A stretch of 32,886 nucleotides of DNA from Bacteroidales bacterium (GTDB lineage Bacteria; Bacteroidota; Bacteroidia; Bacteroidales; UBA932): NCBI GenBank assembly GCA_015060225.1, contig SUYX01000018.1, positions 1-32,886 on the forward strand. Reading direction: 5' to 3'. Positions 195-16,160 of this stretch are shown piece after piece. The notes beneath the pieces are model-generated. The model had not been told where the DNA came from. It searched no databases and was given only the letters and a program-made list of their open reading frames with translations. The position numbers and the translations under genes are program-made. Position 1 is the first letter of the stretch; every line of letters begins with the position of its first letter.

Positions 195-3100
195 ATGTTC
201 TTACATTTCACAGAAGACTCATATGAGAATGCACTTATCGGACTGTTCAAGTCGATGGGATATGAGTACGCATATGGACCGGATATAGAAAGGAATTATC
301 AGGAGCCATATTATCTTAACCAGATATGGGCTTCCTTGCCGATTGTCAATCCGTCAAAACATCATAATGCCATTGCAGAGGCTATCAAGAAACTCACCAA
401 TATTGATTCGGGTGATCTAACCCAGAAGAATGGTATCTTCATGGATTACCTGCAGAACGGTATTCCGGTAGCATATCATGATGGAAAAGAGATACGCCAT
501 GACATTGTATATTTGATTGACTACGGGAATACGCATAGGAACACTTTCCAGATTATCAATCAATGGACATATGTTGAGAAGTCTGAAAAGAGGGCCGATC
601 TGATTGTGTTTGTGAATGGCCTGCCACTGGTATTGATTGAACTGAAGTCTCCATCCCGTGAAGAGACTGATGCATCTGCTGCATACAGGCAGATAAAGAA
701 CTACATGTATGAGATTCCATCAATGTTCACATACAATGCCTTCTGTGTGATGAGCGATATGATGTGCTCTAAGGCTGGTACAATCACCAGTAGTGAGGAC
801 CGCTTCATGGAATGGAAGACAAAGGACGGAAACTATGAAAGCACACAATACGCAGACTACGACACATTCTTTGAGGGTATTTTCCCGAAGGATCGTCTTC
901 TTGATATTATAAAGAACTTCACATGCTTCTCGCACGAAGAGAAAGGTGCAGCTAAGATTCTGGCAGGATATCACCAGTATTTTGCAGTTAGAAAGGCTGT
1001 GGAGAGAACAGTGAAAGCAACTAACGGTGACGGTAAGATTGGAGTATTCTGGCACACTCAGGGCAGTGGTAAATCACTGTCTATGGTATTCTATGCGCAT
1101 ATGATTCAGGAGGCCCTTTCTCAGCCTACTATTGTTGTCATTACAGACAGAAACGACTTGGATGATCAGCTTTATGCTCAGTTTGCAAAATGCAAGGATT
1201 TCTTAAGACAGACTCCAGTGCAGGCACAGAATAGAGAGAATCTACAGGAACTCCTTAGGAAAAGAGAGGCAAATGGTATAATCTTTACCACTATGCAGAA
1301 GTTCCAGGAGTCAAATGAGCCGTTATCAGAGAGGAAGAATATTGTGGTTATGACTGATGAGGCACATCGTGGCCAGTATGGATTTGAAGAGAAAGTAAGT
1401 GCAGACGGAAAGATATCTGTTGGAATGGCCAGAGTTATTCATAACTCATTGCCTAATGCGTCATTTATAGGTTTTACTGGAACACCTATATCCGCTAAAG
1501 ATAAAGATACACAGGAAGTTTTTGGTGAATATATTGATATATATGACATGACTCAAGCTGTCGCAGATGGCGCTACATGCGCTGTTTTCTATGAGTCTCG
1601 TGTCATTAACCTTAATCTTGATGATGCCACATTAAAGTTGCTGGATGATGAGTATGAGCTTCTTGCAAATGAAGGGGCAAGTGTTGAGCAGATAGAGGCA
1701 AGCAAGAAGGAAATGGCCCATATGGAAGCTATTCTTGGCGCACCTGAAACAATAGATTCACTTTGTTGTGACATACTTAAGCACTATGAAGAAAACAGGC
1801 AGTATGAACTTACCGGTAAGGCTATGATAGTTGCATACTCCCGTCCAATAGCAATGAAAATATATGAAAGGTTGTTGGAACTTCGTCCGGAGTGGACCGA
1901 GAAAGTTAAGGTAATCATGACAGGAGGTAATAATGATCCGGAAGAATGGCATGAGATTGTCGGGAATAAGCAATACAAAAAGGAGCTTGCCAAGAAGTTT
2001 AAGGATGACAATGATCCTATGAAAATTGCTATTGTTGTGGATATGTGGCTTACCGGGTTTGATGTGCCTTCTCTTGCTACCATGTATGTGTATAAACCAA
2101 TGACCGGTCATAATCTTATGCAGGCAATTGCTCGTGTGAATCGTGTTTTTAAAGATAAAGCAGGTGGGCTTGTTGTAGATTATATTGGTATAGCTAAGGC
2201 GCTTAAGGAAGCAATGAGAGATTATACCAAACGCGACCAGGATAAATATGGAAACCCGAATATTAAGGAGACAGCACTGTTAAAATTCAAGGAAAAGCTT
2301 GAAGTGTGCAGAGGATTAATGCATGGGTACGATTATAGCGCGTTCAAAGAGTGTAGTGATACAGAGAGGGCAAGAATTATTAAGGGTGGAGTAAACTTTA
2401 TGTTTGCGCCTACTAAGGAGGAAGATTATAAGAATTTCTTAAAAGAAGCAGGACTGCTCAAAAATGCAGTGAGCCTATGCAGAAGCCTTTTGCAGGAAGA
2501 GGAAAGATATGAATCAGCTTTCTTTGAAACGGTACGTACTCTTCTTAACAGGATGACTGGTAAAGGGACTATTTCTAAGAAAAGTATCAATGAAAGGATT
2601 AGTGCGCTCCTAAGCCAAAGTGTTAAGAGTAATGGCGTCATAAATTTGTTTTCTGATGTTAAGGCAGAGTTTTCACTCTTTGATGCTGCTTTCTTGGATG
2701 AAATCTCCAAAATGAAGGAGAAAAACATTGCAATTGAATTACTTAAGCGATTACTTGCTGAAAGAATTCATATTTATAAAGAGTCAAATATTGTGCAATC
2801 ACAGAAGTTCTCTGAAATGCTTAATATGACTCTATCCAACTACCTCAAAGGGATGATTACTAACGAGGAAGTTATTGAAGAGCTTTTGAAAATGGCTCAG
2901 GATATTGCAAATTCAGAGTCACAGGCCAATGAACTTGGTCTTTCAAAAGAAGAGAAAGCGTTTTATGATGCACTTACCCAACCTAGAGCTGTACAAGATT
3001 TCTATACCAACGAGCAACTTGTAGAAATGACTAAGGAACTTACTGATACTCTCAGGAAAAACCGTACAATAGACTGGCAAAAGAAAGAATCTGCAAGAGC

Positions 3101-3239
3101 AGGTATGAGAAGATTGATAAAACGTCTTTTGAAGAAATACAAATATCCACCAGAGGAGGAGCAAAATGCCATGGATATTGTCCTTAAGCAATGTGAGCAA
3201 TGGGCTGATGTGGAGCCTGAGTATGCATATTATGACTAA
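195..3239 (+). CDS. hsdR: Type I restriction enzyme, restriction/translocation subunit HsdR
   Basis: This 1014-residue protein has the usual length of an HsdR. It is the ATP-driven DNA translocase and nuclease of a type I restriction complex and cuts DNA lacking the host methylation. In order it shows an N-terminal PD-(D/E)XK nuclease (D135, then E149 and K151 in LIELK), a superfamily 2 motor with Walker A TQGSGKS (288-294), DEAH box (388-391) and a GFTGTP motif III, a second RecA-like lobe ending in an ARVNRVF motif VI, and a helical C-terminal region that would bind the methylase core. All key motifs are intact. The ATG at 195 is the first good start after hsdS. Its base composition is closer to the host chromosome than that of the genes from 4122 onward, which suggests a different origin. 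Confidence 0.95.
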   Translation: MFLHFTEDSYENALIGLFKSMGYEYAYGPDIERNYQEPYYLNQIWASLPIVNPSKHHNAIAEAIKKLTNIDSGDLTQKNGIFMDYLQNGIPVAYHDGKEIRHDIVYLIDYGNTHRNTFQIINQWTYVEKSEKRADLIVFVNGLPLVLIELKSPSREETDASAAYRQIKNYMYEIPSMFTYNAFCVMSDMMCSKAGTITSSEDRFMEWKTKDGNYESTQYADYDTFFEGIFPKDRLLDIIKNFTCFSHEEKGAAKILAGYHQYFAVRKAVERTVKATNGDGKIGVFWHTQGSGKSLSMVFYAHMIQEALSQPTIVVITDRNDLDDQLYAQFAKCKDFLRQTPVQAQNRENLQELLRKREANGIIFTTMQKFQESNEPLSERKNIVVMTDEAHRGQYGFEEKVSADGKISVGMARVIHNSLPNASFIGFTGTPISAKDKDTQEVFGEYIDIYDMTQAVADGATCAVFYESRVINLNLDDATLKLLDDEYELLANEGASVEQIEASKKEMAHMEAILGAPETIDSLCCDILKHYEENRQYELTGKAMIVAYSRPIAMKIYERLLELRPEWTEKVKVIMTGGNNDPEEWHEIVGNKQYKKELAKKFKDDNDPMKIAIVVDMWLTGFDVPSLATMYVYKPMTGHNLMQAIARVNRVFKDKAGGLVVDYIGIAKALKEAMRDYTKRDQDKYGNPNIKETALLKFKEKLEVCRGLMHGYDYSAFKECSDTERARIIKGGVNFMFAPTKEEDYKNFLKEAGLLKNAVSLCRSLLQEEERYESAFFETVRTLLNRMTGKGTISKKSINERISALLSQSVKSNGVINLFSDVKAEFSLFDAAFLDEISKMKEKNIAIELLKRLLAERIHIYKESNIVQSQKFSEMLNMTLSNYLKGMITNEEVIEELLKMAQDIANSESQANELGLSKEEKAFYDALTQPRAVQDFYTNEQLVEMTKELTDTLRKNRTIDWQKKESARAGMRRLIKRLLKKYKYPPEEEQNAMDIVLKQCEQWADVEPEYAYYD

Positions 3240-3251
3240 CTTAAATGAATT

Positions 3252-4061
3252 ATGAAACAACCAGGATACGTATACATTCTTACCAATCCATCTTTCAAGG
3301 AGGATTGGGTGAAAATTGGTAAAAGTTCAAGACCGGTAGATGTAAGGTCAAAGGAATTGGATAATACTGCAGTGCCTTTGCCTTTTGAGATTTTTGCCAC
3401 TCTTAAGACTGAGAAGTATGATAAGGCTGAGAAGTTGATACATCGCTATATTGAGCGTTTTACCAACTTGCGTATCCGTGACAATAGGGAGTTCTTTAAT
3501 GTTAAGCCTGAGGATGCGTTGGCTATATTCAGAGATGTGGCAATGATTTTGGATGATGCGGAGATTGATGAGGTTTATAAAAGGTCGGTAAATGGAGAAG
3601 AGGACGAAAAGTCAACATCACCCCGCATAAGACGTACACCAGAGAGAGCAGAGCAATATACTTGGCTAATCTCCGCCAATACAAAATATTTTAATCTTGA
3701 GGGATGCATACAAAAATATGGAGTGGTGTATTGGTCTCAATATTTCCATTATCAGACAGGAGATACTATTTATGTATATAATTCCAGTCCCGACAGTTGT
3801 ATCCGTTATAAGTTCATAGTTGAAGGCCACGATTTGCAATTCAGTGCAGAGATGGAACAAGAAAAGGAATTTCATGCTGACCCAAAAGATTTTGAAAATA
3901 CCAAACTGCACAACCGCTTTGCGAAACTGAAGTTTGTAGACAAGACATCTTCAGACAGACTGTCACTTGTTCATCTCATGGATCATGGTTTGGGTATGGC
4001 TCCAAGGGGTGCTGTGCATCTTACTGGTGAGTTATTGGAGTATATTGAGAAGAATTTCTAG
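3252..4061 (+). CDS. GIY-YIG nuclease (T5orf172/MUG113 type) fused to a PUA/EVE-like domain
   Basis: The 269-residue protein has two parts. Residues about 5-100 look like a T5orf172-type GIY-YIG nuclease: YVYILTN at 6-12, KIGKS at 21-25, an R32/E35/L36 helix, and NREFF with E80 as likely metal-binding glutamate. A charged linker (about 112-135) leads to a beta-rich segment (136-268) starting YTWLISAN, with GDTIYVYNS and a late PRG, resembling PUA/EVE-like folds. EVE-type domains in other proteins recognise modified bases and are often fused to nucleases, so a modification-dependent nuclease is a reasonable inference. The gene starts 12 nt after hsdR, so it is probably read from the same transcript. 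The domain match is by eye; the nuclease half is firmer than the EVE half. Confidence 0.7.
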   Translation: MKQPGYVYILTNPSFKEDWVKIGKSSRPVDVRSKELDNTAVPLPFEIFATLKTEKYDKAEKLIHRYIERFTNLRIRDNREFFNVKPEDALAIFRDVAMILDDAEIDEVYKRSVNGEEDEKSTSPRIRRTPERAEQYTWLISANTKYFNLEGCIQKYGVVYWSQYFHYQTGDTIYVYNSSPDSCIRYKFIVEGHDLQFSAEMEQEKEFHADPKDFENTKLHNRFAKLKFVDKTSSDRLSLVHLMDHGLGMAPRGAVHLTGELLEYIEKNF

Positions 4062-4121
4062 CAAACATTATAACGGATATTAGTTGTAAGTGTTGAAATA
4101 AAAATCACACAAGAGATATAA

Positions 4122-7100
4122 ATGGCAAAGTATAATAAAGGTGATAGTGTTACGTTCGTTGAAACTAACGAGTCAGGAGTGATAGTTGAGGTATATGCTC
4201 CATACAAGGGAAAACAACAATATGCGGTGCGTTGGATTAATTCCGGTGATATATCTGATATTCTAGAATCCAGATTAGAACCTGAACGTAAACTAGAAAA
4301 TGCATTTGATATGCTTCAAGCTGGAATCTATAGTGCATTTGTGGATTTTGCACGCCTTAATACGCAATATAAAATAGAAAACACGAGCATAAATACTATT
4401 TCTTCTTTAAAAGCCTCTCGCACAATTTTTAAGCCATATCAATATAAACCGTTATTGAAATTTCTAAACTCAGATTCAAGAAGAATTTTAATTGCTGATG
4501 AAGTTGGCCTTGGAAAGACGATAGAAGCTGGACATATAATGTTAGAATTAAAAGCAAGAAATGAACTAGGTAGTGCTATAATAGTTTGCCCCAGCTCTCT
4601 ACAAGATAAATGGAAAGATGAACTTGAAACTCGTTTTGACCTACGCTTTAAAAAATATGAGCATAAGTTAGACTTTATTGCGGATATAGAAAGTCATCGT
4701 CCAATATATGGAATTTTAACATATGAAAAAATAAGGACATCAAGTCATAATGATTTAGGTGAAATTTTAGAGGAAAAACAGGTCTTTATTGATTTAGTGG
4801 TATGTGATGAAGCTCATAGAATGAGAAATAGTGGAACTGATACTTTTGATGGAGCAAAGAAGTTTTTGACGGCAGCTCGTTCTGCAATATTTATGTCGGC
4901 TACTCCGATTATGTTGCATGAAGGGAATTTATTCACATTGCTTAATTTATTGGATCCGTATCAATTTAAGTCAGAAGAAGTCTTTAGGAACTTAATGAAT
5001 GCAAATAAACCTTTTGTGGCTGCCATATCCGAATTGAATGCTAAGTTGCCTTTTAAGGATATTGCGCAACGCTTGATGGATGCAGAACTAAGGTATGAGT
5101 ATAAATATAGCGGAGATGACAAGTATAAGTGGACTGCTATTTCTGTCAAGGAAGATTATAAATCCAACCCACTATTTAATAAAATTATAGCAGATCTTAA
5201 TCAACTAGAGGAAACAGATCACAATAGGGTAAAGATTCAATATGACATCTCGTCAATAAGCATTTTAAATAATATCTTTTCTCGTACTACCAAAAGGGAT
5301 GTGACGACAGACTGGAGTCAGGCAATACGAATGCCTAACACTATTACTATAAAATTGACAGAATTTGAACGCAATTTATATGATGATTATCTAGAAAACA
5401 AGTGTGCAGAGGAAGGTGTCACAATTTATGATGCCAACCCTTTGTTTCTTTCAAGTTTGAAGAAGACATTGGCTAGCAGTGTTATTGCAAATACCACAGA
5501 ATGGGAAAACAAGACGGATCTTCCCTATGACTCAAAGTTTGAAGCACTAAAGGAGATTATTGACGATGTTTTAAAAAAGCAAGGGAAGAAACTTATTGTC
5601 TTTGCAACTACAATTCGTACCCTTAAATATTTGCAATATAGACTAATGCTTGAAGGAGTTGAATCTCTAATGATTTATGGAGGAATTAAAGAACGTCAAC
5701 AAATTGTTTGCCGGTTTCAGATGAATAAAGACTTTAATATATTGTTATCATCAGAGGTGGGAGGAGAAGGTCTTGATATGCAATTTTGTGATACGATAGT
5801 TAATTATGATTTGCCATGGAATCCAATGGTTGTAGAGCAACGAATAGGACGCATAGATAGATTTGGACAGACGTCAGAATATGTCTATATCTATAATATC
5901 TTAGTTAAGGGAACATTGCAAGAGAAGATATATGGCCGATTGTTGAATAGAATAGGAATATTTAGGGAATGCATAGGAGATATCGAGGTAATTTTAGACA
6001 GATTCCTTGAAAAAGAAAATATTAAGGGGGTGGATTTTGTCAGCTATCTGGAAAGAGAGGTGGATAATCCAAATCTAACTGAGGATGAAGTTAATAGGAA
6101 ACTAGATAGTATAAGAAAAGCTATTGAACAAGTTAAATTTGATGTGGATCAACTAACAAAAGGATTAAGCGATAGCTTAACCAATGATATGTATTTCAAA
6201 GAAGAAATAAATAAGATTAATAATCATAATAGATATATAACAGAGACGGAACTTATTAATTATGTCAATAGTATTATAGCAAATAAACTAAAGACTGTCA
6301 GGCTGAAGAAAATAGATAAATTCGTTTACAACATAGCACTTCAAAAAGGAGATGCTAAGGCATTAACAAATTTTTTAATTACAAATAAGCCGAATAAGAC
6401 TGATATCAACTATTCTGAATTTCTAAATTATATTAGGGATGAATATATTATACCAATAACTTTTAATCAGGAGTATGCCTATGAGAATAAAGGAATTCAG
6501 TATGTTAATTCATATCATCCTCTAACTATGGCTATTACTGAATATTATAAAAAGGAAAAAAAAGCTAGTGGAAATACCTTTAGGATGGTGCTTAGGAAAG
6601 CGGATGTTGATAATAGGTTAAAAACTGGTGTATATATAATGGGGGTTTATCTATTGGATATTCAGCGCGAAGTCTTTCATAGTGTAAAGCACACACAACT
6701 GCTTATACCTATTGTTTTTGATTGTCAAAATGAGGATTTTGTTGATGATGAGGAACTTAATGAAAAAATATTTTCAGCTTCGCAAGTCTTTTCAGAAATT
6801 GAGGATGAGATAGGACCCCTTGATGTATCTTTTCCATTGCAGATGGCATTTTCAGAAAAAATATCAGAAGTTCAAGATAGATATAAAGAAGACTATAATA
6901 TCAGATCTGAATCGAATAAAATTGTACTTCGTCAACGCATTGTGTCTCAATATGAAAAAAGAATACAAAGTCATTATGATAGGATTGATGAGTATCAGTA
7001 TAGCTATGATCCAAATAAACTTAAGCTTATACCAGCATTGAAAGGAAAAGTAAAAAAATGGGAAGAAGAATTGCAAACAGAACTCATGGAACTAGATAGG

Positions 7101-7160
7101 TCAAAGATTGCTGTTAATCCAAATAAACTTGTGTCATTAAGTGTAATAACTATTAAGTAA
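4122..7160 (+). CDS. SNF2/RapA-like helicase with N-terminal SH3/Tudor-like segment, first gene of a putative defence operon
   Basis: This 1012-residue protein begins with a small beta-rich segment (about 1-55, GDSVTF, GVIVEVY, QYAVRWIN) resembling SH3/Tudor or KOW folds. A SNF2-family motor follows: motif I DEVGLGKTIEAG (126-137), DEAH (229-232), MSATP (258-262), and the second lobe with GGEGLDMQF and motif VI QRIGRIDRFGQ (573-583), characteristic of RapA-like members. The last 400 or so residues are a Lys/Asp/Ile-rich region I do not recognise. SNF2 proteins move along or remodel nucleic acid using ATP; DISARM DrmD is a related defence helicase. The stop overlaps the next start by one base (TAATG), indicating coupled expression. 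Codon use is very AT-rich, unlike hsdR upstream. Confidence 0.88.
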   Translation: MAKYNKGDSVTFVETNESGVIVEVYAPYKGKQQYAVRWINSGDISDILESRLEPERKLENAFDMLQAGIYSAFVDFARLNTQYKIENTSINTISSLKASRTIFKPYQYKPLLKFLNSDSRRILIADEVGLGKTIEAGHIMLELKARNELGSAIIVCPSSLQDKWKDELETRFDLRFKKYEHKLDFIADIESHRPIYGILTYEKIRTSSHNDLGEILEEKQVFIDLVVCDEAHRMRNSGTDTFDGAKKFLTAARSAIFMSATPIMLHEGNLFTLLNLLDPYQFKSEEVFRNLMNANKPFVAAISELNAKLPFKDIAQRLMDAELRYEYKYSGDDKYKWTAISVKEDYKSNPLFNKIIADLNQLEETDHNRVKIQYDISSISILNNIFSRTTKRDVTTDWSQAIRMPNTITIKLTEFERNLYDDYLENKCAEEGVTIYDANPLFLSSLKKTLASSVIANTTEWENKTDLPYDSKFEALKEIIDDVLKKQGKKLIVFATTIRTLKYLQYRLMLEGVESLMIYGGIKERQQIVCRFQMNKDFNILLSSEVGGEGLDMQFCDTIVNYDLPWNPMVVEQRIGRIDRFGQTSEYVYIYNILVKGTLQEKIYGRLLNRIGIFRECIGDIEVILDRFLEKENIKGVDFVSYLEREVDNPNLTEDEVNRKLDSIRKAIEQVKFDVDQLTKGLSDSLTNDMYFKEEINKINNHNRYITETELINYVNSIIANKLKTVRLKKIDKFVYNIALQKGDAKALTNFLITNKPNKTDINYSEFLNYIRDEYIIPITFNQEYAYENKGIQYVNSYHPLTMAITEYYKKEKKASGNTFRMVLRKADVDNRLKTGVYIMGVYLLDIQREVFHSVKHTQLLIPIVFDCQNEDFVDDEELNEKIFSASQVFSEIEDEIGPLDVSFPLQMAFSEKISEVQDRYKEDYNIRSESNKIVLRQRIVSQYEKRIQSHYDRIDEYQYSYDPNKLKLIPALKGKVKKWEEELQTELMELDRSKIAVNPNKLVSLSVITIK

Positions 7161-8857
7161 TGTCTCAGATTATTAATATAGGGTTGGATTTTGGTACACA
7201 TCAGACTAAGGTTTGTATTGAAAATTCTACAGATCCAAGGAATATTACATACACATTTATGAAATTCTATGAGGGAACGATAAGCGAGACTTATTTTTTT
7301 CCTTCAATTGTTCAAGTCAACAAGGATGATACCATCTCGTATGGAAAATTTGATAATAATACAGCTAAATGTATTAAGCAGAACATTACTAAGGGTAAAA
7401 AACCTAAGTTAATTTTGCCTGAAGTACCTAAAAAAGAAAGATATCCCGTAAAGCCGAATGATATAAGTATACTCTCGTTTAATAAGTTTCAAAGTAATCA
7501 AATTAACAAGATTGTCTCAATAGAAGAAAATAGACTGCATAAAAGCTTAAGGAAAGATGAGAGGAAGAAGTTGATATACAAACTTTCTACGCAAACACAT
7601 GATATCAATCACATGAAATTACTATATCAAAGATATGTAGATGAAACACGGGCTAGAAATAGAAAACAATATAATGAATGGAAGATTAAAGTCGATAGAA
7701 TAGATGATAATTATAGGGCAAAGGTACATGGGTGGAAACAAAAATGCTGTGAATTAAAATCAGATTATGAGAAAGAATTAAGGAAATGGGAAAAACCAAC
7801 TAGCAATAAAAAGTATCAAATTTATAGATATTTTAAAATTGCATCTTTTTCAAAACATTATGAGTGGAATATGGATATTGACCCTATAACAGTGTCAATT
7901 TGGTATATTACGTATGTTCTATTTCAAATATATAAGGTTGTAGATAAAAGCGCAACTGTTCAAATGGGCATTCCCCAGAGTATAAGTGATGTAAGTCACT
8001 CAAAGTTGCAGATTAAAAATGCTGAAAGGATATTTTATTCTGCATATAGATTATATTCAAGTTATGAGGATGAAAAAGAATTTCTTAATGCAAAAGTTTC
8101 ACAGCTATTAGAGCGAACAAAATGTGAATTTATTGAGCCTGATTATAATATAGAACCGGGGCTTTTGGTTTTACCAGAAGCCTTCGCGAGCCTTATTACT
8201 TTGACAAAAGAGGGCAAGATTAACAGAGGCCTAAGTCTATTGATGGATATAGGTGGTGGTAGTACTGATATTTCTTTATTTAATGTTATTAATAGAGGCA
8301 GAAACACATTACCCAATATATCTCATATACTTTCAATTCATAAAGGATTAAACCATTTGTTTAAGTCGTATTTTGATGATCATGATGTTGAATCAATAGA
8401 AGATGTAAGAATATTATTTCAGAGAGGGCAGAATGGGTTTTCAAAGTATGTGGATCAATTTTGTAAAGATATAGCAAAAGACATACAAGAGAGTATTTAT
8501 TCCCCATTAATAGAGGCTTCTCAGCATTCAGGAATAAATAGTTATAAGGTTAAAGATGCTCTACAGGGACGTCCGGTGATTTATACTGGAGGAGGTGGTG
8601 TATTTGATATATTGATAAGAAGAATTCATGTCTTTACAGATCCTATGAGTATTTCTAAAGATTTTATTTCATTGAAGAATATAACCAATAAAAATCTTAC
8701 CGATATAGAGTTGTCAATACTATCAGTTTCATATGGTTTGTCTGTGGCACAAATTAAAGAACCAGAAATGACGCCACTAAAAAATCTTTTTGATCATATT
8801 AAGATTATTTTGGGAGAGAAAAATAACTACGAGCACGGCATAACTGACGTTGAGTAA
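7160..8857 (+). CDS. Actin/Hsp70-like ATPase with large charged insertion, second gene of the putative defence operon
   Basis: The 565-residue protein has the three nucleotide-binding signatures of the actin/Hsp70 superfamily: phosphate-1 GLDFGTHQTK (8-17), phosphate-2 MDIGGGSTDISL (362-373) and adenosine motif YTGGGGVFD (475-483). It is not DnaK. A Lys/Glu/Arg-rich, probably helical insertion (roughly 115-215) interrupts the N-terminal lobe, and the protein ends about 80 residues after the adenosine motif, with no substrate-binding domain, lid or EEVD-like tail. Such proteins act as ATP-dependent switches or chaperone-like assembly factors. Its one-base overlap with the helicase gene and the nuclease just downstream suggest it regulates or assembles a helicase-nuclease complex. 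That role is inference. Confidence 0.82.
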   Translation: MSQIINIGLDFGTHQTKVCIENSTDPRNITYTFMKFYEGTISETYFFPSIVQVNKDDTISYGKFDNNTAKCIKQNITKGKKPKLILPEVPKKERYPVKPNDISILSFNKFQSNQINKIVSIEENRLHKSLRKDERKKLIYKLSTQTHDINHMKLLYQRYVDETRARNRKQYNEWKIKVDRIDDNYRAKVHGWKQKCCELKSDYEKELRKWEKPTSNKKYQIYRYFKIASFSKHYEWNMDIDPITVSIWYITYVLFQIYKVVDKSATVQMGIPQSISDVSHSKLQIKNAERIFYSAYRLYSSYEDEKEFLNAKVSQLLERTKCEFIEPDYNIEPGLLVLPEAFASLITLTKEGKINRGLSLLMDIGGGSTDISLFNVINRGRNTLPNISHILSIHKGLNHLFKSYFDDHDVESIEDVRILFQRGQNGFSKYVDQFCKDIAKDIQESIYSPLIEASQHSGINSYKVKDALQGRPVIYTGGGGVFDILIRRIHVFTDPMSISKDFISLKNITNKNLTDIELSILSVSYGLSVAQIKEPEMTPLKNLFDHIKIILGEKNNYEHGITDVE

Positions 8858-8870
8858 ATATATAACTAAA

Positions 8871-9683
8871 ATGGCAACAGTCAAAGATTTAGCAATGAAA
8901 ATGATCCCAGTCCTTATTCGTTGGGCGCAGGGGGCATGGGATAAACCACACTATTATTCTGATTTGTCAGAATCTGTTGGACATAATTCACCAAGAATTG
9001 GAAGAGTACTAGGGGAGATTCAGGATATAATTGATAAACTTGCAATTAATACAGGAAAAGAAATTCCTACATTAAATGGTTTAGTTCAAAATAAGTACTC
9101 AGGATTACCTAGTGATGGTTTTGACTATGTGGTAAAGGATTATAGTGGTTTGTCTGATGATTCAAAAAAAGGTGAGGTGGCAAAACTGAACTTTATTGCG
9201 CATAAATTTGATTGGAGTTGGGTGCTAAAGGAATTGAACCTGTCTCCTGCGCGAATAATTGATGACGAAGAGATTAAAAAAATTCAAAAAGGTGTGTTCG
9301 GGAAGGGGGGAGAAGGCGCAGAACATAAATTGCTTAAGGAATATATATATGAACAACCCAAAAAGGTTAGCTTGGATAAACCAATCGAAGCGGTGATGGA
9401 GTACTGTTTAATGTCTGGAGATAAATTGGATGTTTTCTTTAAGTATGCTAACAAACATGTAGCAATCGAGGTGAAACCATCAAATGCTCCTGAAGAGGAT
9501 GTTAGAAGAGGTATTTTTCAATGTGTCAAATATAAATCAGTAATGGATGCTGAGCGTGTTGTGTATGCTGACAATTATGACAACGAAGTGTTATTGGTTT
9601 TGGGGGGATTAATATCAGATGTTAACAAGCAAATTGCACTTGATTTAGGTGTTAGATATATTGAAAATTTCAAGATAAAATAA
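8871..9683 (+). CDS. PD-(D/E)XK family nuclease, third gene of the putative defence operon
   Basis: The C-terminal half shows the ordered residues of a PD-(D/E)XK nuclease: E151 in a helix (EGAEHKLLKEY), D187 in DKLDVFF, E200 and K202 in AIEVKPS, then a helix with Q217 and Y221 (FQCVKY), like the QxxxY helix of RecB/Vsr-type nucleases. The N-terminal 130 residues resemble a small helical DNA-binding or partner-binding module (LSESVGHNSPRIGRVLGEIQ), unassigned. The ATG at 8871 was preferred over an in-frame TTG at 8850, which would overlap the previous gene and add seven residues. It lies 13 nt after the Hsp70-like gene and closes the operon; a strong hairpin follows at 9730. The likely job is DNA cleavage directed by the helicase and ATPase. 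No family name is recognised. Confidence 0.75.
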   Translation: MATVKDLAMKMIPVLIRWAQGAWDKPHYYSDLSESVGHNSPRIGRVLGEIQDIIDKLAINTGKEIPTLNGLVQNKYSGLPSDGFDYVVKDYSGLSDDSKKGEVAKLNFIAHKFDWSWVLKELNLSPARIIDDEEIKKIQKGVFGKGGEGAEHKLLKEYIYEQPKKVSLDKPIEAVMEYCLMSGDKLDVFFKYANKHVAIEVKPSNAPEEDVRRGIFQCVKYKSVMDAERVVYADNYDNEVLLVLGGLISDVNKQIALDLGVRYIENFKIK

Positions 9684-9699
9684 TGAGTTGTTATCCCAC

Positions 9700-9719
9700 G
9701 TGGTGCAAATGTGGTGCAA
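9700..9719 (+). repeat. Paired GTGGTGCAA repeats, candidate integrase arm-type sites of the left-hand island
   Basis: GTGGTGCAA occurs at 9700-9708 and 9711-9719, an 11-bp period, just after the nuclease gene. The second element has paired TAGTACAC repeats with 11-12 bp period at the matching distance from its own attachment core. This suggests the island to the left ends in arm-type binding sites of a related tyrosine recombinase not present in the window. Confidence 0.55.
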
Positions 9720-9729
9720 GAAAAAAGAA

Positions 9730-9761
9730 AAACCCTCTCAGAGATATCTCTAAGAGGGTTT
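9730..9761. terminator. Hairpin terminator at the end of the defence island
   Basis: AAACCCTCT (9730-9738) pairs perfectly with AGAGGGTTT (9753-9761), and the loop contains the palindrome AGAGATATCTCT. A-rich and T-rich flanks let it act in both directions. It would end the helicase-ATPase-nuclease transcript and shield it from the neighbouring element. Confidence 0.7.
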
Positions 9762-9762
9762 C

Positions 9763-9776
9763 AAGTACCCAGAGCC
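9763..9776. repeat. Attachment core repeat (left copy), tRNA-Leu 3' end duplicate
   Basis: AAGTACCCAGAGCC is identical to 16479-16492, which overlaps the 3' end of tRNA-Leu. No tRNA body adjoins this copy. It is the outer attachment site of the 6.7-kb element and also the probable right boundary of the island to the left. Confidence 0.85.
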
Positions 9777-9892
9777 AGTATAAAACCCTGAAAATACAAG
9801 AAAATAAAACCATCTAAAAGTAAAGAAATACAGGTTGTTACAAATATAGTATTTTCTTTTGGTTTCAAAAATAGGCATTATTTTATATCAAT

Positions 9893-9912
9893 TAGTACAC
9901 CTTTTAGTACAC
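9893..9912 (+). repeat. Paired TAGTACAC repeats, left arm-type integrase sites
   Basis: TAGTACAC at 9893-9900 and 9905-9912, each followed by C, 12-bp period. The same pair occurs near the right end at 16401-16419 on the same strand. Position between the attachment core and the integrase start fits arm-type recombinase sites. They lie directly upstream of the integrase -7 box, so binding could also repress int. Confidence 0.65.
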
Positions 9913-9929
9913 CTTTGGAAAATAAATCA

Positions 9930-9937
9930 TACCTTTG
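9930..9937 (+). promoter_or_regulatory. Candidate -7 box of the integrase promoter
   Basis: TACCTTTG matches the Bacteroidota TAnnTTTG -7 element, 26 nt before the integrase ATG. I see no convincing TTG at the usual upstream spacing; that region holds the TAGTACAC repeats. Confidence 0.45.
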
Positions 9938-9963
9938 GGAAAGTAAGAGAAAACAAAAGAGGT

Positions 9964-11208
9964 ATGGCAAAACTATCAAGCAGCAACAAGGACAACCCCA
10001 AATTGGAACAGAGGATTTTGGATGATGGGCGTATAAGCCTGTATCTGGAGTATTATTTGGGGCGTGAGAGTGTGCCTGTGTTGGATGAGAACGGGCAACC
10101 TGTATTGTATGAAACGGGTAAAATGGTCGGTACACCCAAATATAGGGTAAAGCATAATAGGAAAAAAGAGAACCTAAATATATATCTGGTGGCCACACCC
10201 AGAACGCCACAGGAGAGAACATCTAATAAGGAGGCTATAAGGCTGGCAAATAAGATTAGGCAGGAAAGAGAACAGGAGCTGTTGGAGAGCAGGGAGGGTT
10301 ACAGGCTGAAAAAAGAGCGTGAAATAAATTTCTTAGATTACTTCCAGATATACATAGATGGCTATACCAAAAAGGATATAAAGATGATGCAGATAGCATT
10401 ACAGAGGTTTAAGGACTTTTTGAAAGCCTCTCCAGAATACAGGAGGTATGAACAGATCATAAAACCCAACCAGCTCACAAAGGATATGATGGTGGATTTT
10501 ACAGAGTATCTGAATAGCAGGAGTAAAGGAGAGGGGGCAAAAAGTATTTACCAGAGGTTTAAAAAGGTTATTAAATACGCTGTTGAACACGATGTAATAA
10601 AAAAGAACCCTTGTATAGGTGTAGTTATAAAGATTGATGAACAAATTTTGAGAAAGGATGTTCTTTCATTAGAGGAGGTGCAGCAGCTAATATCTACCCA
10701 CTATACAGGGGAAAATCCCAATATAAGGAGAGCATTTATCCTTAGCCTATACTGTGGGTTGAGGTTCTGTGATGTTAAAGAGCTGGTTTTTGCTAATGTG
10801 GATTATTCAAATAAGCTACTAAGATTTGAGCAGAATAAAACCAAAGGGCATTCTGCAAATAGTGGTGTGGTTGTACCTCTGAATGATGGCCTGATAAAAT
10901 TGATTGGAACCCCTGTAGATGGGCAGGGTAAGGATAGTTTAATATTTCCATTGCCTAGCCATACAATGTGCCTTAAAGCCTTAAAAAGGTGGGTAAAAAG
11001 GGCGGGGATAGATAAGCATATAAGTTGGCACTGTGCCAGGCATTCATTTGCTGTTAATATCCTCAACAATGGGGCTAATATAAAGACTGTAGCAAGTTTA
11101 TTGGGCCATTCTGGATTAAAGCATACAGAGAAATACACAAGGGCAATAGACAGCTTAAAACAGGATGCAATAAACAGTTTGCCAATGCTGGATAGTACTA
11201 ACTTTTAA
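9964..11208 (+). CDS. Tyrosine recombinase (site-specific integrase)
   Basis: This 414-residue integrase would insert and excise the element at tRNA-Leu. The catalytic set is complete in the C-terminal half: R267 (CGLRFCD), a KTKG beta-hairpin lysine, H356 and R359 (HCARH), H382 and the nucleophile Y391 (HTEKYTR). The region about 120-220 is a SAM-like core-binding domain, and the N-terminal 110 residues an arm-binding domain as in Bacteroidota integrases. The frame is open upstream to 9859 through a TTG, but ATG 9964 (MAKLSS) follows the -7 box and is preferred. Its location next to the left attachment core is typical. It precedes the 236-residue gene by 12 nt, so they may be co-transcribed. 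Confidence 0.95.
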   Translation: MAKLSSSNKDNPKLEQRILDDGRISLYLEYYLGRESVPVLDENGQPVLYETGKMVGTPKYRVKHNRKKENLNIYLVATPRTPQERTSNKEAIRLANKIRQEREQELLESREGYRLKKEREINFLDYFQIYIDGYTKKDIKMMQIALQRFKDFLKASPEYRRYEQIIKPNQLTKDMMVDFTEYLNSRSKGEGAKSIYQRFKKVIKYAVEHDVIKKNPCIGVVIKIDEQILRKDVLSLEEVQQLISTHYTGENPNIRRAFILSLYCGLRFCDVKELVFANVDYSNKLLRFEQNKTKGHSANSGVVVPLNDGLIKLIGTPVDGQGKDSLIFPLPSHTMCLKALKRWVKRAGIDKHISWHCARHSFAVNILNNGANIKTVASLLGHSGLKHTEKYTRAIDSLKQDAINSLPMLDSTNF

Positions 11209-11220
11209 AGGGTTGAGGTT

Positions 11221-11931
11221 ATGTATAATAAAAGCAATATTTTAGATAAATATCTACTGAATTGGGATGGTGTTTGGTACCTAATGGGCAAATATCAGCA
11301 GTTATATGATGGTGATACAGAAATGATGCCCGATGGAGAATTTGTGTGTAACCCAACAATAGAGGGAGAAAAAGAATCAGAAAAAGTGTTAAGGCTCTTA
11401 TGGCTAGATATTGGGAAGTATAAAGAACAGATTAAAGAGGATTGGCAAAAGATAGAGAACGATTATGAATTTAGGCACCAATATGAAGCAGAGTATATTG
11501 CTATAAAGAGACTGAGTATAATTTGCAAGGATTATGAAGATAGATGCAAATATTTAGATGAGTTAGTAAGTAAAATGCAACAATCTAAATGCCCTAAATT
11601 TTCCATACCAAATGAACTAAACACAGATAAAGCTAGTAGGTTATTAGGTAAAGCAATGCAATATGGTTTATGTGATGCTAGTTATAAATGGCTAAAAACA
11701 AAGGCTTTATTAGCATATTTTAGTGCACAGGCTAGTGATTATTTAAGTTTAACCAACTCTAAATATGGTGAAAAGCTAAAAATTTCTTGGCAACCTTTTG
11801 AGCAATTATTCCAGGTTACGGGGCTCGCTGGTGCAAATAATGAAAACGTAAATAAGTATGGACCTCCAAAAGATAGCAAGATAGTAGATGATATTTTTAA
11901 AGAATTAAACAATAGTGTTAATAATCAATAG
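11221..11931 (+). CDS. Hypothetical protein downstream of integrase
   Basis: A 236-residue soluble protein with no signal peptide or membrane segment. The middle is charged and helical; the C-terminal part (about 130-210: IPNELNTDKASRLLGKAMQYG, then KWLKTKALLAYFSAQ, then the WQPFEQLF stretch) resembles a conserved region of unnamed proteins I associate with Bacteroidota mobile elements, where it often follows an integrase. It follows int by 12 nt and ends just before a strong terminator, so int and this gene form one transcript. A role in recombination or element control is only suggested by position. Confidence 0.7.
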   Translation: MYNKSNILDKYLLNWDGVWYLMGKYQQLYDGDTEMMPDGEFVCNPTIEGEKESEKVLRLLWLDIGKYKEQIKEDWQKIENDYEFRHQYEAEYIAIKRLSIICKDYEDRCKYLDELVSKMQQSKCPKFSIPNELNTDKASRLLGKAMQYGLCDASYKWLKTKALLAYFSAQASDYLSLTNSKYGEKLKISWQPFEQLFQVTGLAGANNENVNKYGPPKDSKIVDDIFKELNNSVNNQ

Positions 11932-11937
11932 ATTAGC

Positions 11938-11970
11938 CTCCTATATAGTCCCTATATAGGAGCTTTTTTT
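11938..11970 (+). terminator. Rho-independent terminator after the integrase transcript
   Basis: CTCCTATATAG (11938-11948) and CTATATAGGAG (11952-11962) form an 11-bp stem with a 3-nt loop followed by seven T residues. It sits just after the stop of the 236-residue gene, so an upstream ATG at 11971 for the next gene is unlikely. Confidence 0.85.
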
Positions 11971-12102
11971 ATGATATACTCTATTTCTTTGCATTGTTCT
12001 TCTACAGCAATAGTGTTTGCAAGCTCTATTGTGAGAACAAGGGCAAATAAGGGGTATACTTGCAAATGCCCTGGACAGCCCCAACCCTCTAAAACTAAGA
12101 CT

Positions 12103-12393
12103 ATGACAGAGGAAATGAGGCAGATGGCTGACCTAGTAACAGCCAACATTATTAACAGCTCAAAAAGAATCCTAACCAGCGAGGAGGCAGCCCGTTATAT
12201 GGGAGTTTCAAAATCTTACCTCTATAAACTTACAATGAGGCAAGAGATACCCCATTCTAAACCAACGGGCAAAATGGTGTACTTTGATAGGGAAGAGCTG
12301 GAAGAGTGGCTAATGAGTGGCAGAATAGCTACAGAACAACAGTTGAACCAACAAGCCCAAACTTATTGTATGAAAAAAGGAGGTAAGCAATGA
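12103..12393 (+). CDS. Excisionase-family helix-turn-helix DNA-binding protein
   Basis: With the ATG at 12103 the product has 96 residues. Residues about 23-70 (LTSEEAARYMGVSKSYLYKL, then a wing with KMVYFDREELEEWL) are a clear MerR/excisionase-type HTH_17 domain, found in excisionases and replication or mobilisation helpers of Bacteroidota elements. The frame extends upstream to 11971, but that start abuts a terminator and the extra residues look non-coding. The stop overlaps the next start (ATGA), so it is coupled to the 178-residue gene and probably to rep. It may act as recombination directionality factor or regulate replication. Confidence 0.8.
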   Translation: MTEEMRQMADLVTANIINSSKRILTSEEAARYMGVSKSYLYKLTMRQEIPHSKPTGKMVYFDREELEEWLMSGRIATEQQLNQQAQTYCMKKGGKQ

Positions 12394-12926
12394 ATACCCC
12401 CAACATTCTCTACTATGCAAAATTTGCATACACTACCCAAAAGGGCAAGAAAACCCCTAAATACACAATAATTGCACAAGCTGGGTATTATCCCCCTATG
12501 GAAGAGTTGAGGGGTAGGGATGGTTTAATATCTATGAACCTAATGGAAAAGCTAAAAGATGGTAGTAATATCCCATCTGTTAGACTACAGGCTAAAAACA
12601 GCCTCAACTTCACAGGGCTTAAAGAGTATTTTCAAGGAGGCAAATTGTCTGGTTATGCTTATGGATACCCCTTTGATAAATCAACCTATAGCAAGGATGG
12701 TAAGCCTAACCCATTTTTTACACATAAGCAGGATGGATTTTTGTTTATCATTGAGCAAGACAAAACAACCCCCAACAACCTCACCCCTGTTTCTATTGAG
12801 ATGGTAGTAATTGAGGGGGCAAAGGTGTTAATAAGTGCCTACTGTAAACAGCTTGCAATGGGTGGTTTTAATGAGGTGCTAACGGAGTTGAGGAAACAGG
12901 CCAAAATAGAGAATGTCTTACAATAG
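12390..12926 (+). CDS. Hypothetical protein upstream of the replication initiator
   Basis: A 178-residue protein with no membrane segment, rich in aromatic and glycine residues (GYAYGYPF, FFTHKQDGFLFIIEQD), probably beta-rich. It overlaps the HTH gene by 4 nt, and its stop codon lies inside the first origin-like repeat immediately before rep. In filamentous phages a single-stranded-DNA-binding protein is encoded next to gene II, so a replication accessory role is possible, but I see no specific match and the size is larger than gpV. Confidence 0.65.
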   Translation: MNTPNILYYAKFAYTTQKGKKTPKYTIIAQAGYYPPMEELRGRDGLISMNLMEKLKDGSNIPSVRLQAKNSLNFTGLKEYFQGGKLSGYAYGYPFDKSTYSKDGKPNPFFTHKQDGFLFIIEQDKTTPNNLTPVSIEMVVIEGAKVLISAYCKQLAMGGFNEVLTELRKQAKIENVLQ

Positions 12927-12955
12927 GGTGTTATTTGTTGGCAAAATTTGGTAAC
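12915..12955 (+). other. Origin-like repeat 1 (f1-type plus-strand origin similarity), upstream of rep
   Basis: A 41-bp sequence starting GTCTTACAATAGGGTGT, followed by an imperfect palindrome (GTTGGCAAA / TTTGGTAAC). It matches 13905-13945 at 36 of 41 positions. Layout and sequence recall the f1/M13 plus origin (nick region GTTCTTTAATAG, then a short spacer and a TTGTTCC hairpin). It contains the stop codon of the preceding gene and ends 6 nt before the rep ATG. Confidence 0.6.
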
Positions 12956-12961
12956 AGCAGA

Positions 12962-13903
12962 ATGTATGACAAAGTTAAATTTTGGTTGGATAGAGGGCTT
13001 TATAAAGAAGAGTACTCAACCATAGTGAACAGCTTGGAAAATGCTACTATCTCAGCAGACAAAAAGGGGGAAACTTGGGTAAATGGCAATTTGGGAAACT
13101 TGAAAATATCAGCTCAAATTGGGGGGCTGTCGGTGGTGGGTAGTTTGCCAAAATATCTATATGGCCATAATGCCTATAATTTAGATCTAAATTCAGCAGG
13201 GCAAGCCATAGAGAAGATTGAGGATGATTTGCATATAAGCATAGGGGGTGCACACATAACAGAAATAGAGTTTGGTTCAACATTCCAGATGCAAAAGGAG
13301 GTTTCAGAATATCTGTTGAGGTTGGGGGAAGCCCCCAGATTATGCAGGGGTGGATTTGGCACCTCAACCCTCTACTACACAGGTAAGGGAAAGAGGCCTG
13401 CAAGGGTGTTGGCTTTTTATGATAAGGCAAAAGAGATGGGGGGAGAGCTGGCAGAGATTCCTGCAGAGTTGAGGGGTAAAAACCTGTTGAGGTTTGAAAT
13501 GAGAGAACGGGGGCGGTTGGGCCAGAGGTTAGGGGTTCCCAGAGTTACAGCCTCAACCCTTACACAAAGGGCGTTTTATACAAAGATGGTTAAGAGGTAT
13601 AAAGAGGGGTATTTTAGTATTGCTAAACAGAACCGACTAAAAACAAATGCTATGGATGGTATAAAAACAGTTTCACAGGCTTATGATGCTTTTGTAGCTC
13701 AACTGATAATGCAGAGCAAGCAAGGGCAAGCACAGGAATTTATAGAGGATTTAAAGAGAGCTGGAGTGTTTAAAGATAGAAAGGATTATACAAGGCTTAA
13801 AAACAGAATAGCCAGAGCCTCAACAGGTGCCAAATTTGTAGAGGCAGATGAGCTAATAAAAGAGCTGGATGATGATATTATAAATTGCTGTGCTTATGGG
13901 TAA
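12962..13903 (+). CDS. Filamentous-phage gpII-like replication initiator
   Basis: The 313-residue protein resembles the gene II/X replication initiators of filamentous phages, which nick the plus origin and start rolling-circle replication. By eye, the stretch GSLPKYLYGHNAYNLDL and ITEIEFGSTF parallel the f1 gpII segments around its GHNVFGTTDL and ISRIDATF. Further on are VLAFYDKAKEM (YDK 153-155) and LRFEMRERG (RFE 177-179), as in the family. The ATG at 12962 (MYDKVKFWLDRG) is preferred over TTG at 12935, which lies inside the origin repeat. Two origin-like repeats flank the gene. The product should give the excised element a replicative phase. Confidence 0.85.
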   Translation: MYDKVKFWLDRGLYKEEYSTIVNSLENATISADKKGETWVNGNLGNLKISAQIGGLSVVGSLPKYLYGHNAYNLDLNSAGQAIEKIEDDLHISIGGAHITEIEFGSTFQMQKEVSEYLLRLGEAPRLCRGGFGTSTLYYTGKGKRPARVLAFYDKAKEMGGELAEIPAELRGKNLLRFEMRERGRLGQRLGVPRVTASTLTQRAFYTKMVKRYKEGYFSIAKQNRLKTNAMDGIKTVSQAYDAFVAQLIMQSKQGQAQEFIEDLKRAGVFKDRKDYTRLKNRIARASTGAKFVEADELIKELDDDIINCCAYG

Positions 13904-13904
13904 A

Positions 13905-13945
13905 GTCTTACAATAGGGTGTAGTTTGTTACCAAATTTTGGTAAC
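13905..13945 (+). other. Origin-like repeat 2 with perfect palindrome, downstream of rep
   Basis: Second copy of the 41-bp sequence, one base after the rep stop. Here the palindrome is perfect: GTTACCAAA-T-TTTGGTAAC (13927-13945). The AATAG nick-like region and the hairpin correspond to the f1 plus origin arrangement. This copy looks the more intact and may be the active origin. Confidence 0.62.
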
Positions 13946-13980
13946 ATCTTAAAATCTAAAATAGAATAAAAATAGAAGAG

Positions 13981-14313
13981 ATGAGCAGGGCAAAAGGTTC
14001 CCCAAAGACAGGGGGCAGGAAAGCAGGAACCCCCAACAAAGTAAAGGCAGATGTAAAACAGTGGGTTGATATAATCCTCAACAATGGCAGGGGGGAATTT
14101 GAAAAAAGACTGTTGAGGTTGGATGATAGAGAATACATAAGAACCTATGTAAGTCTATTGGGGTATGTACTGCCTAAAATGTCACCGACAACACCAGAGG
14201 AGCTATTGAAGAAAGAGGGGGAAATGATGCAAAAAATGTTGGTATCAATGTCAGAGGAGGCGTTGGATAAGGTGGCTAAGAAATTGTTTGAACTTAACAG
14301 TAGAGGAGAATGA
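13981..14313 (+). CDS. Small basic DNA-binding-like protein (KGSPKTGGRKAGTPNK motif)
   Basis: A 110-residue protein with a basic Gly/Pro-rich N-terminus (AKGSPKTGGRKAGTPNK, residues 4-20) of the AT-hook-like kind seen in DUF5681 and some phage terminase small-subunit-like proteins, followed by two helical segments (about 22-60 and 70-108). It lies 35 nt after origin-like repeat 2 and overlaps the next small gene by 4 nt (ATGA). A nucleic-acid-binding role is likely; packaging is not supported because no large terminase is nearby. Confidence 0.6.
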   Translation: MSRAKGSPKTGGRKAGTPNKVKADVKQWVDIILNNGRGEFEKRLLRLDDREYIRTYVSLLGYVLPKMSPTTPEELLKKEGEMMQKMLVSMSEEALDKVAKKLFELNSRGE

Positions 14314-14468
14314 AATTTGCACTGACTAGGGAGGAGAAATTGGCCTTATTACAGGCAACCTCAACGGGAGAACTAGACACAAAGAAGATTCCCAGAATAG
14401 AAAAGGAAATAAGGGGGCAAAATGCCTTTTTAGAGCTGATGCAGAGCTTACCCGATATTGAGGGATAA
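14310..14468 (+). CDS. Small hypothetical protein, 52 residues
   Basis: The frame starts at the ATG overlapping the previous stop (ATGA) and encodes MKFALTREEKLALLQATSTG followed by a charged helical segment ending LPDIEG. The 4-nt overlap and intact frame support a coupled small gene. No family is recognised. It is followed by a terminator hairpin. Confidence 0.6.
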   Translation: MKFALTREEKLALLQATSTGELDTKKIPRIEKEIRGQNAFLELMQSLPDIEG

Positions 14469-14510
14469 ACGCTTTCAAAACGCTTAAAACCGGCAGAAAA
14501 CCGGCCAAAT

Positions 14511-14548
14511 AAAAAAGGGGCAAGGTATTTTTATCCTTACCCCTTTTT
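14511..14548. terminator. Bidirectional hairpin terminator between convergent genes
   Basis: AAAAAGGGGCAAGGTAT pairs with ATCCTTACCCCTTTTT across a short T loop with about two mismatches. It sits between the rep-side operon reading right and the XRE gene reading left, so it can end both transcripts. Confidence 0.75.
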
Positions 14549-14586
14549 GCATAATAATCTAATTTATCCAATGCCTATAAAAAAGG

Positions 14587-14829
14587 CTACTCCTTAACCT
14601 CAACGAGCTGGAGCCTTGCACCACAGTTGGGGCAACAGAGAACGCTTTTAGGTTCAAACAGCTCAGCTATTGAAACATTCAGTGCATTTGAAAGCCTCTC
14701 TAGGGTTTCAAATGATGGCTTTTTTATGTTCTGGCTCAATGCCGATGGGGTTATACCCATAATGTTGGCAAGGTCTGCAAGGGTTATATTTTTCTCCCTG
14801 CAAATTTCTTTCACTCTTAATGTAGTCAT
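14587..14829 (-). CDS. XRE-family repressor with C-terminal zinc-ribbon-like tail
   Basis: An 80-residue Cro/CI-type regulator. Residues about 5-58 form an XRE helix-turn-helix (LADLANIMGITPSALSQNI, SFETLERLSNALNVSIAELF). The end carries CCPNCGARL (C65, C66, C69), half of a zinc-ribbon-like knuckle that may bind metal, possibly in a dimer. It is transcribed away from the small-gene cluster starting at 14989. The shared 159-bp gap holds two promoter-like sequences and a 9-bp inverted repeat, so it probably represses the rightward cluster and itself, as a lysogeny-type switch. Confidence 0.85.
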   Translation of the reverse strand: MTTLRVKEICREKNITLADLANIMGITPSALSQNIKKPSFETLERLSNALNVSIAELFEPKSVLCCPNCGARLQLVEVKE

Positions 14830-14851
14830 ACCTAAATATAGTTTGTTGGTG

Positions 14852-14859
14852 CAAATATA
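14852..14859 (-). promoter_or_regulatory. Candidate -7 box for the XRE regulator
   Basis: On the minus strand TATATTTG matches TAnnTTTG, 22 nt before the regulator ATG. The upstream partner is weak. Confidence 0.5.
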
Positions 14860-14874
14860 CTAAAATGTAGGATA

Positions 14875-14903
14875 TTCTAAATAAATTGTAAAAATATTTA
14901 GAA
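14875..14903. promoter_or_regulatory. Candidate operator of the XRE regulator
   Basis: TTCTAAATA (14875-14883) and TATTTAGAA (14895-14903) form a perfect 9-bp inverted repeat with an 11-bp A/T spacer. It lies between the two divergent promoters, where a homodimeric XRE protein would be expected to bind. Confidence 0.5.
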
Positions 14904-14919
14904 AAAGTTTCAAATAAAT

Positions 14920-14950
14920 TTGGTGGTTAATGAAATTATGCCTACATTTG
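14920..14950 (+). promoter_or_regulatory. Promoter of the rightward small-gene cluster
   Basis: TTG at 14920-14922 and TACATTTG at 14943-14950, separated by 20 nt, match the Bacteroidota consensus well. The first gene starts 38 nt downstream. Confidence 0.65.
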
Positions 14951-14988
14951 TATCAGAGAAATGAAACAAACCCTAAATAATTAAAGTT

Positions 14989-15165
14989 ATGGCAACACAA
15001 AGAAGATACACAGTAAGTTTAGCACCAACAGGCTGGTCAGTATATGATGAGGTTACAGGATTAAAGGTGAGATGTTTTGGATGCAGACAGGGTGATAGAA
15101 TAGAGGCTGTAACTGAGATGTACAAGCTTAATGGATGGAGAATTCCAGCAGGGGGCATAAGATAA
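14989..15165 (+). CDS. Small hypothetical protein, 58 residues
   Basis: Encodes MATQRRYTVSLAPTGWSVYD then a segment with VRCFGCRQGDR (a CxxC pair) and ends WRIPAGGIR. It is the first gene after a good promoter and opposite the repressor, the position of early or regulatory genes in phage-like switches. The CxxC may bind metal. No family recognised. Confidence 0.55.
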   Translation: MATQRRYTVSLAPTGWSVYDEVTGLKVRCFGCRQGDRIEAVTEMYKLNGWRIPAGGIR

Positions 15166-15233
15166 GCCCCTGTTTCTCCAACAGTAACTAAAACAATATC
15201 TAAAGACTAATAACAATCCAAAAATCCAATATT

Positions 15234-15569: not shown

Positions 15570-15571
15570 TG

Positions 15572-15950: not shown

Positions 15951-15956
15951 AAGATT

Positions 15957-16112: not shown

Positions 16113-16160
16113 TAAATTTAGAACATAGGCCCTATATTTGAACCTAGTAAACAAAGCAAA

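Follow-up and report, generated by a model that had tools for sequence, protein, structure and literature searches.

How does a bacterium make use of an Hsp70-like ATPase without a substrate-binding domain when its gene lies between the genes for a SNF2-type DNA motor and a nuclease, and which of the three proteins belong together? This question is raised by three adjoining genes in a stretch of Bacteroidales DNA, bases 1-32886 of contig 36 in a draft genome of 2.15 Mb; the whole stretch of 32,886 nucleotides was analyzed and is called the window in the following. An earlier note, written from the letters of the DNA, had proposed a three-part defence system, and the three open reading frames (ORFs) are indeed found where it had placed them: a predicted SNF2/RapA-type DNA translocase (4122..7160, plus strand, 1012 amino acids), a predicted Hsp70/actin-fold ATPase (7160..8857, plus strand, 565 amino acids) and a stand-alone PD-(D/E)XK nuclease (8850..9683, plus strand). 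The translocase and ATPase genes overlap by 1 nt as described, and the reported 13-nt gap in front of the nuclease gene holds if translation starts at ATG 8871; a start at TTG 8850 gives an 8-nt overlap with the ATPase gene. The data strongly support that the conserved unit is the pair of SNF2 and Hsp70-like proteins, the two core partners, and not the triad. With a probability of roughly 0.6 this pair is a two-gene module of a defence-linked SNF2 motor and a chaperone-type ATPase that gates it, working with exchangeable effectors and with the nuclease as an accessory in this locus.

Close relatives of the window ATPase are rare. Its own genome aside, they were found in one of 60 relatives and in one of 394 genomes sampled from the phylum, and in both of these first cases a SNF2 gene lies directly upstream. 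None of 36 genomes of the same genus, many of them incomplete drafts, contains a relative, and none was found in plasmids or viral contigs with the window ATPase as query, in plasmids or phages with the ATPase of locus L007, or in viral contigs with the alignments A3 and A4. A profile search of 394 other genomes of the class yielded nine matches (8.6e-5 to 9.9e-4) in frames of 432-449 amino acids, which were taken for FtsA-like proteins by length only. Scanning the genome collection for the motif GLDFGT[HY]Q[ST]K returned 53 stretches, all of which contain an Hsp70-like ORF and 48 also a SNF2 ORF; the five others (L029, L037, L040, L043, L057) are cut short and their wider contexts contain the SNF2 gene. 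On viral contigs the same pattern matched two stretches, and the viral match L019 looks like a chance hit. The 53 contexts compared comprise 50 fetched loci, L006, L007 and the window; L022 and L030, which are L007 and L006, respectively, were left out of one step together with L039 and L054. In every one of the 53 contexts the SNF2 gene is found directly upstream of the Hsp70-like gene on the same strand, with a gap of -14 to +24 nt, and an all-against-all comparison at 1e-6 revealed no other family kept across them, the next most frequent groups being type I restriction parts, regulators and a family of 408-694 amino acids (five loci). Moreover, pairwise distances among the SNF2 proteins correlate with those among the Hsp70-like proteins (r 0.90) over 50 of the 53 rows, the incomplete rows L094, L100 and L127 being left out, and none of 2000 permutations reached this value, a correlation that is explained by stable linkage (co-inheritance) as well as by contact. 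The 53 contexts amount to fewer than 53 independent cases, as L028/L054 and L039/L072 are near-copies according to BLAST rows and one genome, G808, contributes two pairs. The two pair copies of G808 differ from each other and reside on two contigs (L105, L112). Thus, the helicase/Hsp70-like part of the proposed three-part system stands. The earlier note had named homologues that rarely occur together as grounds for refutation, and judged by this the pair holds up and the triad fails.

The pair is not confined to close relatives. A SNF2 profile search of 197 other genomes of the phylum at 1e-60 gave two matches, G243 and G201. In G243 the SNF2 gene overlaps by 4 nt the gene for a protein with the motif GLDWGTSCTK, and this pair is flanked by PglZ-/BrxL-like genes on one side and by integrase and HsdR-like genes on the other, all named by eye. 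Plasmid searches starting from G243 brought up further pairs in Aminobacter, Shinella, Sphingobium (two plasmids), Leptolyngbya, in which the gene order of the pair is reversed, and Cyanobacterium. A wider Hsp70-like profile finds the partner in all six distinct distant loci (5e-78 to 6.7e-49), scores that are partly a matter of construction, as five of the six, Leptolyngbya not among them, were built into the profile; with a narrower profile not including the distant pairs, the same five score between 1.3e-29 and 1.5e-5. The SNF2 and Hsp70-like pair spans several phyla, with members in Bacteroidota, Alphaproteobacteria and Cyanobacteria. SNF2 proteins of about 1200 amino acids are also found without an Hsp70-like gene, namely in G201, in at least three of the 200 genomes searched from the phylum to which G796 belongs (presumably Pseudomonadota; a lower bound, as G796 is unlisted at 1e-80 though it carries the pair) and in one phage-labelled gut contig, the one examined of three. 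The G796 record itself may be misbinned, because the pair it carries groups within the Bacteroidota clade. In a sister clade a DrmD-like SNF2 gene is combined with a gene for a predicted sacsin/Hsp90-type ATPase (L171 3050-9732, L174 5236-12021, L183 6038-12702, L184 2-6837, L185 372-4939). Directly downstream of the sister SNF2 gene four of these five loci encode a protein starting with a QNAED motif, and L185 has a broken ORF with a like start; the assignment of the QNAED-type partner to the sacsin/Hsp90 type follows from matches to Pfam SACS in the three proteins tested (3.9e-18 to 9.9e-20). In a tree of 38 rows, which took 27 of the 50 Bacteroidota-type rows, the three partner types fall into three separate groups with 99-100% support.

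What kind of protein is the constant partner? The window ATPase matches no Pfam, NCBIfam or PADLOC family above fold-level hints (Ppx-GppA 0.016, exopolyphosphatase 0.064, PDC-M61B 0.019). Its predicted structure contains an actin-type nucleotide-binding domain (NBD), the NBD-like part extending to about residue 533 of 565; no substrate-binding domain follows in the model, in agreement with the earlier note, and residues 551-565 have a predicted local distance difference test score (pLDDT) below 50. The fold is thus modelled as an Hsp70 NBD without a substrate domain. Hsp70 is the nearest fold only by domain alignment; in the Foldseek list PilM, MreB and BeeR stand among the Hsp70s with comparable E-values, and the whole-chain TM-scores are low (TMq 0.26-0.42). 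Pfam HSP70 (PF00012) does not match the window ATPase at 0.1 and matches two of 20 scanned relatives, with 7.6e-4 as best value. The active-site residues are invariant across the relatives in this partner as they are in the SNF2 partner. A helical insert at about residues 107-211 varies within the family from 0 to about 200 amino acids. PDC-M61 was set aside as a name for the ATPase: PDC-M61B is matched by all 20 scanned ATPases (best 1.3e-6), and the same model has weak matches of short extent in 104 of 198 genomes, by their length probably FtsA- and DnaK-like proteins, so that only a shared fold is demonstrated.

Is the pair linked to defence? Septu is a proven defence system, and the strongest single clue is found in L006 (5789-9339), where the Hsp70-like ATPase forms a fusion with Septu PtuA (1.9e-79) and the next gene, overlapping by 4 nt, encodes a PtuB-like HNH protein (9.9e-73). 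In addition, type I restriction genes are present in eight of the 53 contexts including the window, as counted from the clusters c2, c4 and c9 named by the analyst and without a 75-residue fragment in L088. The type I methylase model PDLC03019 matches at 1e-20 five of 117 genes near the pair and one of 119 control genes, and at 1e-110 19 PADLOC models, BrxC among them, match the neighbours and four the controls. The neighbours were the six closest ORFs with 150 or more amino acids at each of 20 loci, chosen for lying on long contigs and not by random draw (118 of 188, reduced to 117 by dropping one of 1807 amino acids), and the controls were 119 of 165 ORFs from the same 20 genomes, taken mostly in order from the left with some long ones skipped. 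In Aminobacter, an annotated Hachiman HamA is encoded at a distance of about 4 kb from the pair. The names BREX, CBASS and those of some regulators were assigned by eye unless a family match is given. A defence role of the pair thus appears likely on indirect grounds, namely the restriction and other defence genes nearby and the one Septu fusion; the enrichment in such neighbours is modest. Alternatively, the two genes could serve housekeeping or belong to a mobile element, with a RapA-like protein acting in transcription or replication alongside a ParM/Hsp70-like partner, and have no part in defence. This is unlikely in view of the patchy distribution, with no relative in the same-genus genomes despite the proviso given above on their completeness, and of the Septu fusion and the defence neighbours.

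The motor itself poses the question of whether the pair is a derived form of a known system. By its motifs and family matches the first gene encodes a predicted SNF2 translocase of the RapA/DrmD kind, with an N-terminal beta barrel (residues 9-54), a motor at about 90-690 composed of two RecA lobes with Walker A, a DEAH-type motif II and motif VI, a RapA-like C-terminal half and a long helix (905-959). The predicted structure is of middling quality (pLDDT 79.1), with SRCAP as best structural row, tied with RapA. Its best PADLOC match among the best 25 of 47 families listed is DrmD (PDLC02623, 1.3e-122), and the G243 protein matches the same model over its full length at 5e-254, as would be expected if the SNF2 protein were DrmD and the locus a divergent DISARM system whose other parts were lost or lie elsewhere. 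We consider this quite improbable, as the window protein reaches only 304.7 bits against NCBIfam DrmD (NF038317), for which the cut-off is 610, PADLOC found no drmA, drmB or drmC among the six window proteins scanned (195-11208), as had been noted before, the only matches to DISARM models in the families listed being those of the SNF2 protein itself, and the gene that accompanies the motor in all 53 contexts is the Hsp70-like one.

The nuclease keeps D194, E207 and K209 in the expected order, consistent with the intact PD-(D/E)XK nuclease described earlier, and Pfam offers a weak CoiA_nuc hint only. Its relatives (29-36% identity) are plasmid-borne in Chryseobacterium, Lactiplantibacillus, Methylobacterium and Falsirhodobacter and also occur in two of 197 other genomes of the class, and a further plasmid match comes from Rhizobium. 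A three-gene system with the nuclease as obligate cutter would be in line with the close spacing of its gene to the ATPase gene and with the retained catalytic residues, but is very improbable and already largely refuted, as blastp at 1e-6 detected no nuclease relative in the 52 other pair contexts (in six of which less than 1.4 kb is available downstream of the ATPase: none in L127, 546 nt in L130, 863 in L137, 910 in L100, 932 in L104 and 1348 in L105), tblastn at 1e-3 detected neither a SNF2 nor an Hsp70-like gene in six contexts of nuclease relatives (Rhizobium not among them), and the closest relative of the window pair, L092 (79% identity for the SNF2 protein and 68% for the ATPase over shared columns), has an HTH-type (helix-turn-helix) regulator with a weak WCX match in the place of the nuclease. 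Because of these three findings the nuclease is regarded as an independent nuclease that is optional here and sits in the same gene run; a nuclease adjoining a pair need not belong to it. In L145 (4332-7850) a nuclease relative adjoins genes that by eye resemble a CBASS operon. The third place is thus exchanged between loci, and its most frequent occupant, directly downstream of the pair in L099, L103, L105, L106 and L107, is the family of 408-694 amino acids mentioned above, the two tested members of which have leucine-rich repeats of the BspA type; its gene starts -4 or +1 nt from the ATPase gene in four of the five loci. On the Sphingobium conjugative plasmids L177 and L178 (6980-16645) the pair, a 533-residue protein, a PLD-type and a GIY-YIG protein are encoded in one run.

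How could a gated two-gene module act? SNF2 family proteins translocate along double-stranded DNA, and Hsp70 family proteins change shape with the bound nucleotide. It could be imagined that the RapA/DrmD-like motor tracks along double-stranded DNA and that the Hsp70 NBD partner opens and closes with ATP and ADP. We propose that the ATPase, bound to the motor, serves as its nucleotide-dependent clutch, such that the motor would load or stay on invading DNA in one of the two states only. The complex might by itself block DNA transactions of the invader or signal to an adjacent or fused effector. Such effectors would attach to the ATPase, as the PD-(D/E)XK nuclease may do in the window, Septu PtuA-PtuB in L006 and other proteins elsewhere, and a pair without a recognized effector might block transcription or replication of the incoming DNA. 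Several observations speak against this picture. A same-strand ORF begins within 80 nt downstream in only 29 of the 53 contexts; many of these ORFs are short or unrelated, and in one case the ORF is the detached end of a split ATPase. Most pairs are therefore without a recognized effector. The 53 loci derive from a one-motif pattern and thus sample one clade. At 1e-20 the PADLOC excess is modest (196 models in neighbours, 123 in controls), model counts overstate genes because several models match one protein, and mad3 was matched in three control genes. Finally, the helical insert of the ATPase has no explained role. To our knowledge helicase-centred defence systems are numerous, and how their motors are switched is mostly unknown. 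Since the motor goes with an Hsp70-like ATPase in every context compared here and the sister motors with an Hsp90/sacsin-like one, the question of gating becomes directly testable. On a broader scale, and only tentatively, the gated module could represent a general class of immune machines, in which a DrmD/RapA-type motor would be gated either by an Hsp70 NBD or, in the sister clade, by a sacsin/Hsp90-type GHKL ATPase, two unrelated folds, with exchangeable effectors plugged into the ATPase.

The surroundings of the pair in the window are of two kinds. To the left, HsdR of type I restriction (195..3239, plus strand, assigned by family matches) and a GIY-YIG-type T5orf172 protein (3252..4061, plus strand) precede the pair; the N-terminal 115 residues of the latter match the PADLOC candidate PDC-S57 at 5.7e-54. 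As the window begins at base 1 of the contig, genes beyond HsdR are outside the view. To the right follows a 6.7 kb element (9763-16492) bounded by an att-like 14-nt repeat AAGTACCCAGAGCC, the left copy of which lies at 9763..9776 (plus strand) and the right copy at 16479-16492, at the 3' end of tRNA-Leu(CAA). The element encodes an integrase (9859-11208) and an excisionase-like protein (11971-12393), and the defence genes of the window sit to its left, outside its bounds. Within it, a 45-nt direct repeat with 87% identity (12912-12956 and 13902-13946) is found on either side of an ORF (12935-13903) that matches the replication family Phage_CRI.

How does the pair compare with known systems? 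In agreement with the earlier note, the scans revealed no PADLOC-DB 2.0 system with these parts, with the best 25 families listed for the SNF2 proteins. Ownership of the pair by type I restriction was rejected on the number of contexts given above. Septu comes close through L006; PADLOC found neither PtuA nor PtuB among the six window proteins scanned, and we know of no SNF2 or Hsp70 part in Septu. The literature matches listed for the SNF2 and Hsp70-like combination, for sacsin with SNF2 and for Septu with an Hsp70-like protein do not describe the pair, although it may have been named before. Likewise, the pair is not described in the excerpts of papers on phosphorothioate systems (PMC10853773) and YprA/ARMADA (PMC12458937) or of the HEPN (PMC3710099) and TRADD-N (PMC8195603) surveys. 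RapA, BrxHII and BREX-related helicases share the N-terminal barrel, the SNF2 core and the RapA-like C-terminal half with the motor. In the excerpts on BREX-related systems the helicase goes with a methylase and a DUF499/BrxC-like ATPase (PMC12839542), and a word search of the main text of that paper yielded no mention of Hsp70 or ASKHA. In the window no PglZ/BrxL and no DUF499 ATPase with N6-methylase were found among the first ten genes in Pfam and the first six in PADLOC. CoCoNuT CnuD resembles the pair in being an Hsp70-like ATPase in a predicted defence system but, according to the excerpts, combines an NBD with a substrate-binding domain, has degenerate Walker-A-like motifs and accompanies McrBC (PMC11090510), whereas the window ATPase consists of the NBD only, has conserved motifs and goes with SNF2. 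CoCoNuT was rejected on this difference in architecture, as far as the excerpts describe it, and because none of ten window proteins matches an McrB-type GTPase. DISARM class 1 DrmD is the nearest relative of the motor in PADLOC and NCBIfam and differs by the constant Hsp70-like partner of the pair and the score below the NCBI cut-off; membership in DISARM was rejected on that score and the missing drm genes, and a DrmD match outside DISARM may point to a different system. INO80, SWR1 and BAF are eukaryotic SNF2 remodellers with an actin/Arp module. A SNF2 motor combined with an actin-fold ATPase is common to the pair and to these remodellers; the bacterial partner is nearest to Hsp70, no histones are involved and shared ancestry is not claimed. 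If the general class is real, bacteria would have a counterpart of the chromatin remodellers gated by actin/Arp, and orphan DrmD calls could be accounted for by it.

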